The translations under genes were made by a program, and so were the position numbers. From contig JAJDAZ010000002.1 of assembly GCA_029261595.1 (NCBI GenBank), positions 1 through 64,000 on the forward strand: DNA of 64,000 nt, written 5' to 3'. Below, piece by piece: positions 1 through 29,600 of this stretch. The stretch is from Nitrospinaceae bacterium. Its GTDB lineage: Bacteria; Nitrospinota; Nitrospinia; Nitrospinales; VA-1. Under the pieces are notes generated by a model. That model worked only from the letters and a program-made list of their open reading frames with translations, had not been told where the DNA came from and did not search any database. Position 1 is the first letter of the stretch. Every line of letters starts with the position of its first letter.

Positions 1-3000
1 TCGCTGTCAATGTATCTGGCTATGATATATTGGCCTTGACTGGAGTCCAGATTATTATAATCGACCTCAATGTCGACATCCGCCGCACCCACCGGGCCAT
101 AGTTCATTTTATAAGCGAGCCCACTTGATAAGGCCGGAGAACTTGAGTTAAGTCTTATAATATTGCCACTAAATTGATTCATGTCTCTTGCTGAATTATT
201 ATAAACTTCCTCCCAGCTGGTACCGATTTGTGACGGAGAATCGCCATTTATCTTGCCGGACTCTGATGAACTAAAGTCGGATTCAAATACCACGGTTGCT
301 GTCCCGGGACCAGGGGATGAGCTTGGTTCCACGGTAATTGTCTGAGTGGCCGTCCCTGTGTTGCCTTGAGAATCTGTCGCCGAATAGGTCACTGTGGTGG
401 CGCCAACCGGGAATCCCCCAGCTGGGGCATTGTTGGTTGGTGTGATCGCGCCATCCACCAGATCGGTAGCGGTGGCGGTACCTAAAGTAACGGTCGTCAA
501 TGTTCCGGTTGCCGGAACGGTTAAATTTGCTGGAGCGGTCACCGAAGGCGATGTGGTGTCTGTCACTGTCACCGTTTGGTTCGCCGTTCCTGTGTTGCCG
601 TCGGAGTCCGTGGCTGACCAGGTGACAACGGTTGAGTCGACCGGGAAACTCGCCGGAGCATTATTCGTTGGAGTGATCGATCCATCTTCCAGGTCGGTGG
701 CGGTGGCTGTACCTAAAGTGACGGTCGTCAATGCGCCCGTTGCCTCAACCGTTATATTTGGTGGGGTAGTTACCGTCGGTGCGGAAGAATTCCCTGCTGA
801 AAACTCAGTAACTTTAAAACTCGATACCTGTACGTTCCTGAGATCGTAAGAAGAAAACTCATTGTGTATCGCCCCGAATCCCAAGCCTGATTTTCCTGCT
901 ACGGTTAAGTCGGATGCCTCCGTGACAAAGATCTCTAAAACGTCATTGATAAAGACCTTGATGGACGATCCGTGCATCTCAAGTTTAACCGTATCGCCAT
1001 CTGCGGGGGGTGAAGAGCTTGTCCCCAGAAGAGTGGCTGTGCCGGCAACAATCTTATAAAGTTTCGCCTTGTCCGTTGCATTTTTGGTTATCGCAACTGC
1101 AAACATATTGTCAACATCCGTCCATCTTCCAATTATCCAAATCGGCTGGAAGGCGTCTGTGTCCAGACGAGAGGTTGTCGTCTCAATGTCTACATCTGGC
1201 GAACCCACCGGACCGTAATTGGCGTGGTAAGTGTAACCGTCGTCATCGAATGAAGTCGCCCCGGCAGTGTCTTCCGGGTGCCGTAAAAATGCGAAGGCTG
1301 AACCGGTGCTGTTTTCCAATTCAATCCAGTTCGTTCCTGTGGTATCGGGAATCGTGCTATCCAGGGACCCATTGTTAGGACCGCCTGTGAAGTCATCTTG
1401 AAAAACCAGGGTTTCGGTTAAGGGACCAGGGGGTGAGGCCAGTTGAACAGTAATCGTCTGGGTGTCAATTCCTATATTTCCGGCAGCATCCTGGGCGCTC
1501 CAGGTCACTACCGTCGTTCCTACAGGGAATCCTCCTGCTGGTGCGTTATTCGTTGGAACCAGCGGTCCATCTTCCTGGTCGGTGGCTGTGGCGGTACCTA
1601 AAGGAACTAGCGTCAAAGTGCCAGTGGCTTCAACCGTGGCATTTGGCGGAGCTGTCACTGATGGTGGCGTTGTATCAGTTGAGATTATTTCTGCCACGAT
1701 GGTCACTTCATCAAATTCTGTAAACTCGCCGTCATCGGCACTCAAGCGCAGCACGTAAGTACCCACCGAGGAGAAGCTTGCGGTAGTATCTTCCAAATTA
1801 GGATTCGCAAAAGTAACCGTGCCGGGCCCACTCTGCTCACTCCAAGTAATGGTCGGAAACGGTTGCAACTGGCTATCGTCAGTGACCGAACCATTAAGAA
1901 TTGCACCGATTGCCAGGTTGATCGTTTGATCCAAACCGGCGTTTACCGCAGGTGCTGCGTTGGTTCCAGTGGGCGGGGGAGAAGTAAGAAAAGCATTCAC
2001 CCCAAACTGCATCGGTGGTGTGCCTCTTTCCGCCGCTCCCATATCGGGTGCAGCGCCGGTATAGTTGTCATTGAAATTTGGGAGGACTTCTCCAGCATCG
2101 ACGCCGGGGCTATTTGGCGCAAGGAAAAACTCACCGACAAAATCATTACCGGAATCATAGGTAGGTACGCCAAAAATGCCGTTGGCTTCAGCGCCACTAG
2201 GAACCCTGAGCTGACCGTTGTAGAGATCGTAGTCGAAATCATTATTATTTGAGGTACTGGTGGTTGTCCTGATAGAGTATTCAGTATCTGGAAATGCGAT
2301 TTCATAAATGTTATTTCGTGTTTTCGTGTCCTGTACCGAGCTATCGCTAATACCGCGCGAAAAACCCAGCGGGAACTGCAACCCTTGAACAAAGGCTTGC
2401 AACATAGTGTTATGAAAAAAGAACACCCCACCCCCGGTATCACTGCCAGCTTTATGAAAGACCCCTCTGGGATCGTCATCTGAACTTATGTCGGGTTGCT
2501 TACGACTTTCGACACCTACGTTTCTCCAGGCATAGAGAGGTCCCACATTCACTTTGCGAGTCGCAATTCCTACATACGTGTAGTCCAGATAATTTTCCCA
2601 AATCCGTATGTTGATGTTACCCCCCTCGATCTCTATTGCGTCGTCCCAAACTTGCGAGATAGAATTGCCATAGACATCAGAGTCTCTGTGTAAGTTGCCC
2701 ACAGTGCCACCATTAGCTCCACCGCCAATACCATCGTTAAAATAGTGCTCCTCATCTGAATATATTTCATTGTAGCGAATCACGTGGTTTCCACCCGTGT
2801 TTGTAAAATAGATACCGCCTGACCCTTTGGGGTGATAGCCAGAGCTATTAGGCGTCACATCGGGTCTCGCTTCTTCCCAGCTATTCGTATCACCACGGGG
2901 GTGGTGGATTTTATTTCGCTGAATGATTATTTTGTGGATATTATTGGTTGTCGTTGTCGACTTGACACCGCTGTCGTGTTCTAAACTCCAACCCAAACTG

Positions 3001-3719
3001 TCTGTACGACCCCATCCGCTGATATCGTTTTGTTCTATGACGACGTCATGGCTGGCGCCATTAAGTAGGATGGCGCTTCTTGAAGCACCTTTGAGTGTGA
3101 GCCCCCTGATGATAACGTGGTGTGCATTGACCAGGATGTTGTAGGACCTATTGTTTGCAACATCAATGGTGGCGGTTTGTCCTGGCTCTGCAGTATATAA
3201 TATATAGCCACTTGCACTGCCAGATTGATTAAGGGTGAGCGTGTCAGATGAATTTTGGGGAAGTTGAATGGTTTGTGCTATCGGAAAATCCTCACTCCAT
3301 GTCTTGGTAGTCAGTGTTGCGGTCGTTCCGGTATTTTGTAAAGTCAGTTTGATTTCGTATGTGGTGTCCGGGGTGAGGTGTACGACGCTTCCGCGATACT
3401 CTCCATTTCTTATATCAAACCAAAGTGAATGTCCCTCCTTCCAGGTTGAGGAACCAAGAGGTCGGTATTCTACTCTGGCCTCGTTACTGGCACTTCCTTG
3501 AGCAGGACTCCAATAGATGCCTGTGCTATGGAAGGTGGAAACTGCGGATTGCGCACTTGTAATTGCAGGTAGGGAAACTGCGAAAAATAGAAAAAGAAAA
3601 CTGAAAGCTTTAATCTGCCATTTCCCCTTTTGTAGTTGGAGGAGGGCCGAAAATACCAATCCAGGGGAAATGGTTTGGGCAGACTTAGAAACCTTTGAAG
3701 TGACTTTAAGAATGCACAC
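1..3719 (-). CDS. Giant secreted multidomain protein: beta-helix, PKD-like, HYR and LamG-like domains (3' end beyond window)
   Basis: The minus strand is open without a stop for 1239 codons, from a TGA at about 3740 to the left window edge. A hydrophobic stretch at residues 40-58 ending in SLPAITSAQS reads as a signal peptide. It is followed by an FnIII-like domain (63-144) and a right-handed parallel beta-helix (about 177-517, with repeated N/H-x-hydrophobic turns such as HHVIIRGLTL and HKIIIQRNKI). Next come a PKD-like domain (587-677), an HYR domain (684-760), a concanavalin/LamG-like domain (767-977), two more HYR domains (977-1130) and the start of a second LamG-like domain. The HYR domains share the core TATDxxDGxxxPTNNAPA. 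The start is uncertain: GTG at 3719 has a weak AGAGAG upstream, and TTG at 3659 would give a shorter n-region. From the families, it is probably a cell-surface or secreted carbohydrate-binding or adhesive protein. Any enzymatic role for the beta-helix is unproven. Confidence 0.85.
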   Translation of the reverse strand, partial: MCILKVTSKVSKSAQTISPGLVFSALLQLQKGKWQIKAFSFLFLFFAVSLPAITSAQSAVSTFHSTGIYWSPAQGSASNEARVEYRPLGSSTWKEGHSLWFDIRNGEYRGSVVHLTPDTTYEIKLTLQNTGTTATLTTKTWSEDFPIAQTIQLPQNSSDTLTLNQSGSASGYILYTAEPGQTATIDVANNRSYNILVNAHHVIIRGLTLKGASRSAILLNGASHDVVIEQNDISGWGRTDSLGWSLEHDSGVKSTTTTNNIHKIIIQRNKIHHPRGDTNSWEEARPDVTPNSSGYHPKGSGGIYFTNTGGNHVIRYNEIYSDEEHYFNDGIGGGANGGTVGNLHRDSDVYGNSISQVWDDAIEIEGGNINIRIWENYLDYTYVGIATRKVNVGPLYAWRNVGVESRKQPDISSDDDPRGVFHKAGSDTGGGVFFFHNTMLQAFVQGLQFPLGFSRGISDSSVQDTKTRNNIYEIAFPDTEYSIRTTTSTSNNNDFDYDLYNGQLRVPSGAEANGIFGVPTYDSGNDFVGEFFLAPNSPGVDAGEVLPNFNDNYTGAAPDMGAAERGTPPMQFGVNAFLTSPPPTGTNAAPAVNAGLDQTINLAIGAILNGSVTDDSQLQPFPTITWSEQSGPGTVTFANPNLEDTTASFSSVGTYVLRLSADDGEFTEFDEVTIVAEIISTDTTPPSVTAPPNATVEATGTLTLVPLGTATATDQEDGPLVPTNNAPAGGFPVGTTVVTWSAQDAAGNIGIDTQTITVQLASPPGPLTETLVFQDDFTGGPNNGSLDSTIPDTTGTNWIELENSTGSAFAFLRHPEDTAGATSFDDDGYTYHANYGPVGSPDVDIETTTSRLDTDAFQPIWIIGRWTDVDNMFAVAITKNATDKAKLYKIVAGTATLLGTSSSPPADGDTVKLEMHGSSIKVFINDVLEIFVTEASDLTVAGKSGLGFGAIHNEFSSYDLRNVQVSSFKVTEFSAGNSSAPTVTTPPNITVEATGALTTVTLGTATATDLEDGSITPTNNAPASFPVDSTVVTWSATDSDGNTGTANQTVTVTDTTSPSVTAPANLTVPATGTLTTVTLGTATATDLVDGAITPTNNAPAGGFPVGATTVTYSATDSQGNTGTATQTITVEPSSSPGPGTATVVFESDFSSSESGKINGDSPSQIGTSWEEVYNNSARDMNQFSGNIIRLNSSSPALSSGLAYKMNYGPVGAADVDIEVDYNNLDSSQGQYIIARYIDS

Positions 3720-25899: not shown

Positions 25900-26477
25900 T
25901 TAAAGCCTTTAGTTTTGGAATATATTGCAATATCGATATATTTTGAAAACCCGGTTTCCCTTTTGTGAGGAAAAAATATATCGAACAGTAAGCCTGAAGG
26001 GATGTTTCTCTCCTGAAGACTCAGAGTGAATCAACTTCCATGCAGATAAGGATGCCACCATAAGGTTAAGAATTGATGAACTGTCCGACACAGTTTGGCA
26101 ACAATATCGAGAAAAAGTCTGGATATGAATTAGGGACTTTAAGGATAGACAGAATAATCAGGTTGCAAGTTAACAAACCTTGAACGCAAGATAATTTACA
26201 CTTACAGTAAAATACTTTTTATAGCTTTACATTTATAGCAATATTACCCAATTTTATGAAAGTTTGTCAAGAAAACAATTGATTTTATGGGGTAAAAACA
26301 ACAATAAAACAAATAGTTGCTTTTTTGTCCTCAAAAACCGGAGCCTGTCCGTTAGATTGAAAGTAAATAGGTTATTTCGAAGAAATTTTAGGGATAATCG
26401 AAAGAAAGAGTTCCATCTATCTACACAGCCCTGAGGCAGGCCTGATAAATTTTTGCGGGGGTCGATCGACTTCGTAT
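25900..26477. other. Divergent spacer between the initiating transferase and mod operon
   Basis: No gene seen. This AT-rich spacer separates a leftward and a rightward unit, so it should hold promoters for both. The minus frame at 26254-26505 overlaps the ModE-like boxes and is Phe/Leu/Lys-rich, so it is not believed. Confidence 0.35.
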
Positions 26478-26505
26478 TTCGTTGTATTTTCTTGTATATA
26501 GCCAA
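26478..26505 (+). promoter_or_regulatory. Degenerate ModE-like box (distal)
   Basis: TTCGTTGTATT, 6 bp, then TATATAGCCAA. Compared with the ModE pattern ATCGnTATATA-N6-TATATnnCGAT, most defined positions match on each side and the 6-bp spacer is the same as in the second box. Its start is 32 bp before that of the stronger box, three helical turns. It is weaker by sequence and only suggestive on its own. Confidence 0.45.
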
Positions 26506-26509
26506 AAAA

Positions 26510-26537
26510 TTCGTTATATATAACAGTATATTTCGAT
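26510..26537 (+). promoter_or_regulatory. ModE-type molybdate operator upstream of modA
   Basis: TTCGTTATATA, spacer TAACAG, TATATTTCGAT. The left half matches ten of eleven and the right half all defined positions of the ModE box ATCGnTATATA-N6-TATATnnCGAT. It ends 49 bp before the modA start. In known systems, molybdate-bound ModE represses the mod operon here when molybdate is plentiful. No modE gene is in the window, so the regulator must be encoded elsewhere. Confidence 0.75.
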
Positions 26538-26586
26538 TTTTCGATTCGGGACCGATCTGATCTAAAATTCCTGATAGGGGATTATT

Positions 26587-27342
26587 GTGCTCCGGTTTAT
26601 TTGCATAACGATGCTTCTCATGGCCGATATTTTTTCTTCCGCTCAGGCGGGCGAAGTGCAGGTGGCGGTGGCGTCCAACTTCATCAGCCCCCTAAAAGAG
26701 ATCCAAACCCGGTTTGAAAAAGAAACCGGTCACCGGATGGTCCTTATTTCAGGTTCGACCGGAAAACTGTTCGCCCAGATCAAACACGGCGCTCCCTTTG
26801 ACCTTTTGCTGGCCGCGGATGCCCTGCGTCCCCGGCTCCTTGAAGAAGAAGGGTTTGCTGTCAGAGGGTCTCGCTTCACCTATGCCGTGGGCCGGCTCAC
26901 TTTATGGAGCGCGAGCCCTGACCGGGTTAAGGGAGAGGGCGCGAAAATTTTTCAGCAATCAACCTTCAATTACCTGGCGATGGCCAACCCGAAAACCGCT
27001 CCTTATGGACGGGCCGCAATGCAGGCGCTGAAAAAACTGGGCGTCTGGGGCAAGGTTCAGGGCAAGCTCGTTAAGGGAGAAAATATCGGACAGACGTTTC
27101 AGTTTGTGGCGACCGGGAACGCGGAGTTGGGGTTGGTCGCACTTTCTCAAATCAGGGACCCGAAGAACCGCAAAAAAGGCAGCCGCTGGGAGGTGCCGCC
27201 CGAATTACACGACCCCATCCATCAAGATGTGGTTTTGTTGAAACGAGCCAGAGACAATCCCGCTGCTCTGGCAATGATGGGTTTCATCCGGGGACCGGCG
27301 GCCCGGAAAATAATTTCAGGCTACGGCTACCGATTGAAGTGA
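26587..27342 (+). CDS. modA: Molybdate ABC transporter, substrate-binding protein ModA
   Basis: 251 residues starting at GTG, with an N-terminal signal peptide ending near SSAQA/GEVQVAVASNF. The motifs VAVASNF, SGSTGKLFAQIKHGAPFDLLLAAD and GENIGQTFQFVATGNAELG are characteristic of ModA and line the oxyanion-binding cleft. It captures molybdate (and tungstate) in the periplasm and hands it to ModB. First gene of modABC; the ModE-like boxes lie directly upstream. Length is normal for the family. Confidence 0.95.
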   Translation: MLRFICITMLLMADIFSSAQAGEVQVAVASNFISPLKEIQTRFEKETGHRMVLISGSTGKLFAQIKHGAPFDLLLAADALRPRLLEEEGFAVRGSRFTYAVGRLTLWSASPDRVKGEGAKIFQQSTFNYLAMANPKTAPYGRAAMQALKKLGVWGKVQGKLVKGENIGQTFQFVATGNAELGLVALSQIRDPKNRKKGSRWEVPPELHDPIHQDVVLLKRARDNPAALAMMGFIRGPAARKIISGYGYRLK

Positions 27343-27373
27343 TTTTTTCCCCAAACTTTCAGAAAGAACCGAG

Positions 27374-28057
27374 ATGGATTTTTCAAGTTTTGATTTCACG
27401 CCAGTCTGGTTGACCCTGAAACTTGCCGGCGTCACCGTATTGTTGTTACTCGTTGTGGGAACACCCGTCGCGTGGTGGCTGGCTCACACCCGGTCGCGTT
27501 TCAGGGGGATTGTGGAAGCAGTGGTGGCGCTTCCTCTGGTGCTTCCGCCCACGGTGCTGGGGTTTTATTTGTTGATCGCTCTTGGCCCCAATGGCTGGCT
27601 GGGCGGCCCGGTGAAAGCCGCGACCGGTTCGGCCCTTTCCTTTACTTTTACCGGGCTGGTCATCGCCTCCACTTTGTATTCCCTGCCGTTTGTCGTGCAA
27701 CCGCTGCATTCCACCTTTGAAGCGGTGGGGAAAGTTCCTCTGGAAACCGCCTGGTCCCTGCGCGCCTCCCGGCTGGATGCGTTTTTAACCATCGCGTCCC
27801 CGCTCGGTCTCAGGGGATACATCACGGCGATTGTATTAGGATTCGCCCACACCCTGGGCGAATTTGGAGTCGTGTTGATGGTCGGTGGAAACATCCCCGG
27901 AAAGACCAAGGTGATCTCCATCGATATTTACGATCGCGTGGAAGTCATGGAATACGCAGAGGCCCATATTCTGTCCGGTGGATTGCTGCTGTTCTCCTTT
28001 GTGGTGTTATTGACCGTATATACCATCAACCGGCGACTGCCGATTCATATTTCATGA
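27374..28057 (+). CDS. modB: Molybdate ABC transporter, permease ModB
   Basis: 227 residues with about five to six membrane helices. It has the permease EAA-type loop ETAWSLRASRLDAFLTIASPLG, which contacts the ATPase, and the ModB-typical ALPLVLPPTVLGFYLL and GFAHTLGEFGVVLMVGGNIPGKT. It forms the inner-membrane channel as a homodimer. It starts 31 bp after modA, and its stop overlaps the modC start by 4 bp (ATGA). Confidence 0.95.
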   Translation: MDFSSFDFTPVWLTLKLAGVTVLLLLVVGTPVAWWLAHTRSRFRGIVEAVVALPLVLPPTVLGFYLLIALGPNGWLGGPVKAATGSALSFTFTGLVIASTLYSLPFVVQPLHSTFEAVGKVPLETAWSLRASRLDAFLTIASPLGLRGYITAIVLGFAHTLGEFGVVLMVGGNIPGKTKVISIDIYDRVEVMEYAEAHILSGGLLLFSFVVLLTVYTINRRLPIHIS

Positions 28058-29142
28058 ACAATCTGTCCGCAAATTTTGACGTGAGCTTTCCGGGCTTTCA
28101 TTTAGAGGCCCGGCTCAACATTCCTGAAAGCGGCGTGACCGTTCTCTTCGGACCCTCCGGGTCGGGCAAAACCACCCTGCTGCGTTGTCTGGCGGGTTTG
28201 GAGCGTTCATCCGCCGGATTCATGCAAGTTGGGGAAACCATCTGGCAGGACGAATCACGCGACCTGTTCGTTCCTGTGCATGAGCGTTCGATCGGAGTGG
28301 TCTTTCAGGAGCCACGGTTGTTTCCTCACCTGAGTGTGCGTTCCAACCTGTTGTATGGATTCAAACGCATCCCGGTTCAGGAACGCAGGATCGTTCTCGA
28401 CGACGTGGTCGAAGTTTTGAACATTGGCCATCTGCTGGACCGAAGGCCCCGGTTCCTGTCCGGTGGAGAAGGTCAAAGGGTGGCGATCGGCCGGGCGTTG
28501 CTCACCAGCCCGCGCCTGTTGCTGATGGATGAACCGCTGGCGTCGCTCGACAGTGAGCGAAAGCGCGAAATAGTGCCTTATATCCGCAGACTGCAAACCA
28601 CCTGGGGCATTCCCATCATTTATGTCAGCCATTCCCTGGAAGAAATTTTGCAGTTGGTGGACACCATGGTTCTTTTAAAAGAAGGGAAGATCGTCGCCCA
28701 AGGCCCGGCGAAAAAAGTTTTTTCCGATCTCGATCTGCGGGGACTGATAACCAGCGAAATCCTGGGCGCGATCTTTGATGCCAGGGTCATCGCTCACGAA
28801 CCGGAGTTTGGGCTCACCCGCGTTCAGTTTATGGAATACCAGTTGCACGTTCCCAGGCAAGCCGCTGAGGTGGGGCAGTCCATCAGGCTTCATATTCATT
28901 CCAACGACGTGAGTGTCGTGGCCTCGCCCTCGGATATTCGGACCAGTGTCCTCAATGTTCTGGAAGCCACGGTGATGGAGATAGGGCTGATCGATCCCAC
29001 CGGATATTCGGTCGATGTCAAACTGGATGTGGGGCAGGCACTCCTGGCCACGATCACCCGGAAATCCCTGGCGAACCTGGGCCTCGAACCGGGGCAGAAA
29101 GTCTATGCCCATATCAAAGCGATAAAGATGGTGCATGAATGA
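28054..29142 (+). CDS. modC: Molybdate ABC transporter, ATPase ModC
   Basis: 362 residues. Walker A GPSGSGKTTLL (about 32-42), ABC signature LSGGEGQRVAIGRAL, Walker B LLLMDEPLASLD and the switch His in YVSHSLEE are all present. The C-terminal 70 residues form a TOBE/MOP-type domain, as in ModC, where oxyanion binding can trans-inhibit transport. It powers molybdate import with ModB. The ATGA overlap with modB implies coupled translation. The length is typical. Confidence 0.95.
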   Translation: MNNLSANFDVSFPGFHLEARLNIPESGVTVLFGPSGSGKTTLLRCLAGLERSSAGFMQVGETIWQDESRDLFVPVHERSIGVVFQEPRLFPHLSVRSNLLYGFKRIPVQERRIVLDDVVEVLNIGHLLDRRPRFLSGGEGQRVAIGRALLTSPRLLLMDEPLASLDSERKREIVPYIRRLQTTWGIPIIYVSHSLEEILQLVDTMVLLKEGKIVAQGPAKKVFSDLDLRGLITSEILGAIFDARVIAHEPEFGLTRVQFMEYQLHVPRQAAEVGQSIRLHIHSNDVSVVASPSDIRTSVLNVLEATVMEIGLIDPTGYSVDVKLDVGQALLATITRKSLANLGLEPGQKVYAHIKAIKMVHE

Positions 29143-29210: not shown

Positions 29211-29600
29211 ATGAAAGTCAACGGATGGTTTAAAGTTTTAAGCTTTGCGATGGTGGTCATTTTGACGGGGGTCCTGGCGATGTCTCAGCCTGCCTGGGCG
29301 GCAGGATTGCAGTCGGGGCAGGAAACGTCGGAATTTTCTAAAACCCGGCACATCCAGTCCACCTTAGCCGAACTCGCTGATGCCGGTAAAAAAACAGGAG
29401 CGTGTTTCGAAGCCGGTTCTGTCGGAAAGTGCGCCACCTGTTGCGGAGGCTTCATGAAAAAATGCATGGATCTGGTGGTTGCCCTGTGTCATCGGGGCGA
29501 CCCCAACCGGTCCGAGTTCAGGCATTGTGTCAAAGACAAAGAGGCGCGTTGCAAAAGCGATTTCGGCAACTGTGCCTGGTTGTGTCGCCGCGCCAAATAG
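29211..29600 (+). CDS. Small secreted cysteine-rich protein, unknown function
   Basis: 129 residues. GGGGG-rich spacing gives a ribosome binding site (AGGGGG) before the ATG. The signal peptide has a hydrophobic core at about 9-24 and an AWA-A cleavage site near residue 30. The mature part of about 98 residues has ten cysteines, including CATCCGGFMKKC and a C-terminal GNCAWLCRR, and is basic. Such proteins are usually disulfide-stabilised in the periplasm or outside, or bind a metal or cofactor. It follows modC by 68 bp in the same direction, so it could share the molybdate transcript, but there is no known link. Not recognised as a family. Confidence 0.7.
   Translation: MKVNGWFKVLSFAMVVILTGVLAMSQPAWAAGLQSGQETSEFSKTRHIQSTLAELADAGKKTGACFEAGSVGKCATCCGGFMKKCMDLVVALCHRGDPNRSEFRHCVKDKEARCKSDFGNCAWLCRRAK

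Follow-up and report, generated by a model that had tools for sequence, protein, structure and literature searches.

Do the two ModE-like boxes that stand one after the other ahead of modA in this Nitrospinaceae genome form an operator, and if so, for which regulator and which signal? The window, the whole 64,000-nucleotide stretch of DNA analysed here, carries a modABC operon preceded by two 32-bp units (26478–26509 and 26510–26541) that are identical at 18 of 32 positions. The units start exactly 32 bp apart and each contains a ModE-like core with a 6-bp spacer, just where an earlier note on this DNA had placed them. The features of the locus are as follows.

26471–26476, forward strand: predicted −35 position, TTCGTA, a weak match to TTGACA (3 of 6 positions); TTGAC is found nearby in most related loci and not in the window
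26480–26503, forward strand: core of the distal ModE box, CGTTGTATT-TTCTTG-TATATAGCC, overlapping the predicted promoter
26495–26500, forward strand: predicted −10, TATATA inside the distal box, with an 18-bp spacer, placed from the layout in relatives
26512–26535, forward strand: core of the proximal ModE box, CGTTATATA-TAACAG-TATATTTCG, the sole zero-mismatch match in the genome to CGNTATATAN6TATATNNCG
26587–27342, forward strand: modA, molybdate-binding protein (TIGR01256, 215.3 bits; cut-off 62.5)
27374–28057, forward strand: modB, permease (TIGR02141, 240.3 bits; cut-off 182.6)
28054–29142, forward strand: modC, ATPase (TIGR02142, 413.4 bits), with a C-terminal TOBE domain (PF03459) at 28942–29124

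The proximal core lies 51 bp from the start of modA. After modC, positions 29211–29600 encode a 129-aa protein with many cysteines and an N terminus that reads like a signal peptide; searches of Pfam and NCBIfam returned nothing for it. In Nitrospina, nitrite oxidation is carried out by a molybdenum enzyme, according to excerpts of the published account (PMC3578206), and molybdate uptake would therefore be central to the bacterium of the window if it shares that lifestyle.

We compared both cores with the pattern CGNTATATAN6TATATNNCG, which was composed after the box had been seen and is therefore partly fitted to the proximal box. The proximal core matched without mismatch and was unique at that level in 3,781,069 bases, which bears out the description in the earlier note of a near-perfect box at 26510. 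The distal core had 3 mismatches on each strand, and only 5 of its 9 arm positions are symmetric. The E. coli ModE operator consensus is given as atCGnTATATA-N6-TATATAnCGat (PMC545781); by reading, the proximal box departs from its stricter core, CGnTATATA-N6-TATATAnCG, at 1 position and the distal box at 3. Both boxes have the half-sites and the 6-bp spacer of an E. coli-type ModE operator, the genome encodes a ModE-family regulator, and the boxes lie at the promoter of a molybdate gene, where the overlap with the promoter is taken from relatives and not from the window itself.

Allowing up to 3 mismatches, we counted 24 + 21 matches to the pattern in the genome and 39 + 39 to a reversed control, so a count of 3 mismatches is uninformative on its own. 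The distal box is one of many such places in the genome, and it is conservation that lifts it above chance. The window contained 4 matches (the two boxes on both strands), compared with a mean of 0.65 (s.d. 1.00) in shuffled versions of it, of which 3 of 100 reached 4. For a model that uses sequence alone we took 32 boxes of relatives and left out all four loci belonging to the window's genus; it ranked the proximal box first (E = 0.061) and the distal box second (E = 0.19) in the whole genome, followed by the proximal box on the other strand (E = 1.4) and a new place (E = 1.6). With the window's own boxes included, the model scored the distal box at E = 0.017 and the proximal box at E = 0.021. 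A genome search for further boxes, as the earlier note had proposed, returned only those at modA at E ≤ 0.5. Two places with 2 mismatches, one intergenic and ahead of a 148-aa open frame (C12:45212) and the other inside an open frame (C34:25159), were absent from the model searches (E ≤ 0.5 and E ≤ 5) and were taken as chance.

The boxes are widely conserved. A modA match was found in 40 of the 46 genomes of the family, and a box precedes modA in all 40; 30 of these loci were used to train the scoring matrix and 10 lay outside the training. In the rest of the order, a model from the family only detected a box before modA in 14 of the 14 genomes having modA. Without any matrix, and with no more than 3 mismatches allowed, a box was present in 29 of 30 upstream regions, compared with an average of 0.38 and a maximum of 3 in shuffles. 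When the matrices came solely from other genera, a further box scored above 8 bits in 23 of the 30 modA regions, the window's included, against a background of 1 in 5,069 other positions. The spacing in these 23 was always 30 bp (6), 31 bp (12) or 32 bp (5). Pairs 30–32 bp apart with up to 4 mismatches occurred in 20 of the 30 regions; the 50 shuffled sets and the 408 control windows contained none. Two boxes above 10 bits were found at 25 of the 40 family loci (24 of the 30 on which the matrix was trained and 1 of the further 10). The two-box observation holds and is more than chance, and the comparison with relatives upholds the view that these are tandem sites of the ModE type.

The spacing varies among lineages. 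It is 32 bp in L024 and at all four loci from the window's own genus, 31 bp in genus g5, 30 bp in genus g9 (31 bp in L036) and in L044, and 29 bp in two order-level loci and one porin pair. A spread of 29–32 bp corresponds to about 100 degrees of the helix, which is weak for strict phasing. The earlier note had proposed boxes three helical turns apart on the same face; a distance near three turns is upheld in relatives, whereas the phase is not fixed and the shared face is only approximate. One box alone was found in 7 of the 30 loci by strict score and in 9 of the 10 further modA loci, and the second box is therefore not essential.

We also observed a consistent placement of the boxes relative to a promoter element. 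In 26 of 30 loci the 20 nt preceding the promoter box contain TTGAC, compared with 17 of 667 control 20-mers, and in 19 of those 26 the hexamer and the box are 2 bases apart. By reading, TTGAC stands beside the box in all 10 further family loci as well. In two-box loci it is the distal box that adjoins TTGAC, and the position of this element together with a spacer of 17–18 bp places the TATATA of the right half-site at −10. The four loci without TTGAC include the window, L023 and L024, the last two being among the four loci nearest to the window. Since a sigma-70 promoter scan of 26300–26640 found no promoter and the −35 position reads TTCGTA, the promoter of the window is predicted from its relatives. 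Because the distal box follows TTGAC in most relatives, the two boxes together have the appearance of a double operator that blocks the promoter. The earlier note had called the distal box the weaker one; this stands for the match to the pattern in the window, but in most relatives it is the box that follows the −35 element. Upstream of modA in L045 and L047, a single ModE box centres a longer palindrome in which each strand reads TTGACC, as would suit a pair of divergent promoters.

The genome encodes one ModE-family regulator, a 125-aa protein on contig C39 (C39:94432–94692; TIGR00637, 104.9 bits; cut-off 98.5). This is its only TIGR00637 match, in agreement with the earlier note, which had seen no modE in the window. 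The note had named the lack of such a regulator in the genome as grounds for refuting its reading, and the presence of the C39 protein removes that objection. Another LysR-type regulator (C15) was nearest to OxyR and was set aside. The C39 protein has the DNA-binding domain of a classical ModE and matches E. coli ModE and PDB 2ijl over that domain; its stretches SYKRAWDMVDTMN and STGGKGGGGAQLT, which we take to be the recognition helix and wing, closely match E. coli ModE (1b9m) and somewhat less closely 2ijl. No TOBE domain was found on it, so that it lacks the C-terminal molybdate-binding domains of a classical ModE and consists, as a single-domain ModE does, of the DNA-binding domain alone. 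Its best solved relative is 2ijl, itself a single-domain ModE (135 aa; from Agrobacterium), with a match over residues 7–116. ModE is present in 44 of the 46 family genomes, and 30 aligned family proteins, the C39 protein included, are 118–129 aa long with starts chosen by script. All 30 (L050–L079) contain a cysteine in the motif MNxCF that is absent from both E. coli ModE and 2ijl. None of 30 family modE loci had a box scoring above 8 before modE, and there is therefore no sign of autoregulation at these loci.

Because the C39 protein lacks a TOBE domain, it cannot sense molybdate in the way that E. coli ModE does. PF03459 was counted across the 46 family genomes: it occurs once in 42, twice in G013, where the second match is weak, and not at all in three. 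In 38 of the 40 genomes with both a TOBE match and modA, the two lie within about 4 kb on the same contig, as expected for ModC; in the other 2, TOBE is on another contig. The only TOBE found in the window's genome is that of ModC, and no stand-alone Mop protein was found there. A TOBE protein may have been missed, since the 3.78-Mb draft is 90.68% complete; the other 19 genomes that are at least 90% complete each have exactly one TOBE.

Box and regulator tend to occur together within the phylum. Of 77 genomes, 54 have both box and ModE, 3 the box only, 7 ModE only and 13 neither (Fisher P = 1.7 × 10^−7, ancestry uncorrected); as ModE and the box share ancestry, the count is not independent. 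Six of the seven genomes with ModE only also lack a modA match in the assembly. When the box was counted only at modA, the 59 genomes with modA comprised 52 with both, 2 with the box only, 2 with ModE only and 3 with neither (P = 0.003), an association that rests on the 3 lacking both. We also examined the best 80 of 107 named ModA relatives, some of which are the same genomes as in the phylum set. A box above 10 bits preceded modA in 9 of the 10 titled Nitrospinota, Nitrospinaceae or Nitrospina and in 7 of the 70 others, a few of which have little upstream DNA; among these 7, L242 (Chromatiales) shows two boxes in tandem, 29 bp apart. A ModE-like gene lies near modA in 10 of the 70, and only 2 of those 10 have such a box, so the link between ModE and the box does not hold outside the phylum.

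Computation establishes the existence of the boxes, how they are conserved and spaced, that most relatives have them next to TTGAC, and that the genome has a ModE without a TOBE. As to their function, we consider it probable, at roughly 0.8, that both boxes form a double operator for the genome's single-domain ModE, which would switch modABC off when molybdate is plentiful. A ModE dimer on the distal box would cover the spacer and the −10 of the modABC promoter, and another on the proximal box would lie close to where transcription begins. With their centres 29–32 bp apart, the two dimers would be adjacent and on much the same side of the helix, which may make repression stronger and sharper. 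Binding by ModE, its dimers and their cooperativity, molybdate-dependent repression and the window's own promoter are all points that we infer from sequence comparison.

Could the boxes be AT-rich chance sequence, or −10-like repeats that only resemble ModE sites? The excess of reversed-pattern matches at up to 3 mismatches points that way, but a box is kept at modA in 54 of the 54 genomes of the order that have modA, and the difference between titled Nitrospinota and other named relatives is likewise at odds with chance; this explanation is very improbable and already contradicted. That a Moco riboswitch or some other RNA element of a known kind controls modABC, with the boxes incidental, is hardly credible. 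Such RNAs do precede molybdate transporter genes elsewhere, as described in part of one report (PMC2408646), but an Rfam search of 25900–27400 at E ≤ 1 matched no such family. Its sole match was to an unrelated family, at 18 bits against a gathering score of 50, and for known RNA families the idea is already contradicted.

Two further explanations accept the boxes as ModE sites. One box alone might be the working operator in the window's genome, the other being a remnant or a duplicate without a role, in keeping with the many single-box loci and the imperfect distal box of the window. However, the window's genus and genus g4 (L020–L024) keep both boxes at exactly 32 bp in 5 of 5 loci, and both score above 14 with matrices from other genera, whereas a remnant should drift; we regard a single working operator as quite unlikely. 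It is rather unlikely that the short ModE binds the boxes without responding to molybdate, either constitutively or under redox control through the cysteine of MNxCF. The lack of a TOBE on the protein and the absence of this cysteine from E. coli ModE and 2ijl are consistent with such control. Against it, the conserved target is a molybdate transporter, no other place in the window's own genome reached E 0.5, and the cysteine could be structural.

The E. coli mod promoter has one ModE site, and the ModE-like regulators of Rhodobacter capsulatus are full-length proteins with Mop domains. The locus described here shares with the E. coli operator its half-sites, its 6-bp spacer and its position ahead of modABC, and differs from it in having two sites, 32 bp apart, and a regulator without the di-Mop sensor domain. 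It differs from 2ijl in that the latter lacks the conserved cysteine of the family's proteins. In R. capsulatus, MopA and MopB mediate molybdate-dependent repression of mopA-modABC via Mo-boxes, as set out in sections of one article (PMC6925177); Mo-boxes ahead of molybdate transport genes are common to both systems, and the two ModE-like regulators are particular to the former. Single-domain ModE was reported in 2004 in Desulfovibrio and D. psychrophila, and excerpts of that paper call the molybdenum-sensing mechanism of the Desulfovibrio protein 'not clear' (PMC545781). The same excerpts state that E. coli-type sites were not found in the organisms with single-domain ModE studied there, and describe for Desulfovibrio a repeat of another type together with a fusion protein that carries MOP domains (PMC545781). 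To judge from these excerpts, the reduction of ModE to its DNA-binding domain is common to those bacteria and the present family, whereas the genome studied here retains the E. coli-type site and yielded no TOBE protein besides ModC.

Neither E. coli-type ModE sites nor a single-domain ModE is a novelty in itself, as that study documents (PMC545781). What is new is the combination of E. coli-type sites with a single-domain ModE, in a conserved tandem layout, with a single TOBE per genome on ModC and no separate Mop protein found; new also is that some relatives have outer-membrane porins with ModE boxes or linked to the mod operon. A search of titles and abstracts found no publication dealing with ModE boxes in Nitrospina-type bacteria or with such boxes in tandem, which is weak evidence of absence as subscription papers lay outside its scope. 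A sensorless ModE together with E. coli-type sites and just one TOBE narrows the molybdenum-sensing question of 2004 to few candidates, and the conserved double operator offers a ready system for studying cooperativity.

If the double operator does respond to molybdate, the most economical source of the signal would be the TOBE of ModC, the sole TOBE that the genome yielded. We tentatively suggest, as an idea more apt to fail than to stand, that the transporter has taken over molybdate sensing from the repressor: the TOBE of ModC would signal to the bare ModE by contact or release, and ModE with its tandem operators would thereby control the import route, including dedicated outer-membrane porins in some relatives. 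ModC as the molybdate sensor is a hypothesis.

Porins are linked to modABC in several relatives. A Porin_O_P gene follows modC in G003 (C3), G004 (C252), G005 (C6, where two stops interrupt it) and G007 (C117); in G026 it lies between modA and the TOBE match, and in G014 a fragment follows the TOBE match. The family name comes from a family match for two of the proteins and from similarity to one of them for the rest. Separate porin genes have their own box pairs in G001 and G044 (L137, L138) and a single box in G035. Two of the 30 porin loci share the G035 box, and in the remaining 26 no box above 14 bits was found within the stretch examined. The window's genome yielded no porin like that of G044. 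We regard the Porin_O_P genes that are linked to modABC or have their own ModE box pairs as candidate molybdate porins, by which molybdate may cross the outer membrane.

Outside the family, a box precedes modBC in G055 and G057 and an alginate-export-type barrel gene in G053 and G061. The strong boxes ahead of a barrel gene of this type in two order-level relatives are those of L180 (box at 2085, gene at 2172–3608) and L183 (box at 2074, gene at 584–2038). A box also lies before a histidine kinase gene in G024 and just past the end of one in G050 and G044; loci with a box beside such a gene include L136 (box near 2141), L187 and L188. Finally, in a class-level relative (L191, G047:C235:22500–26000), boxes before modE and before a porin-like gene occur in one cluster with a second modA-like gene (71.9 bits).
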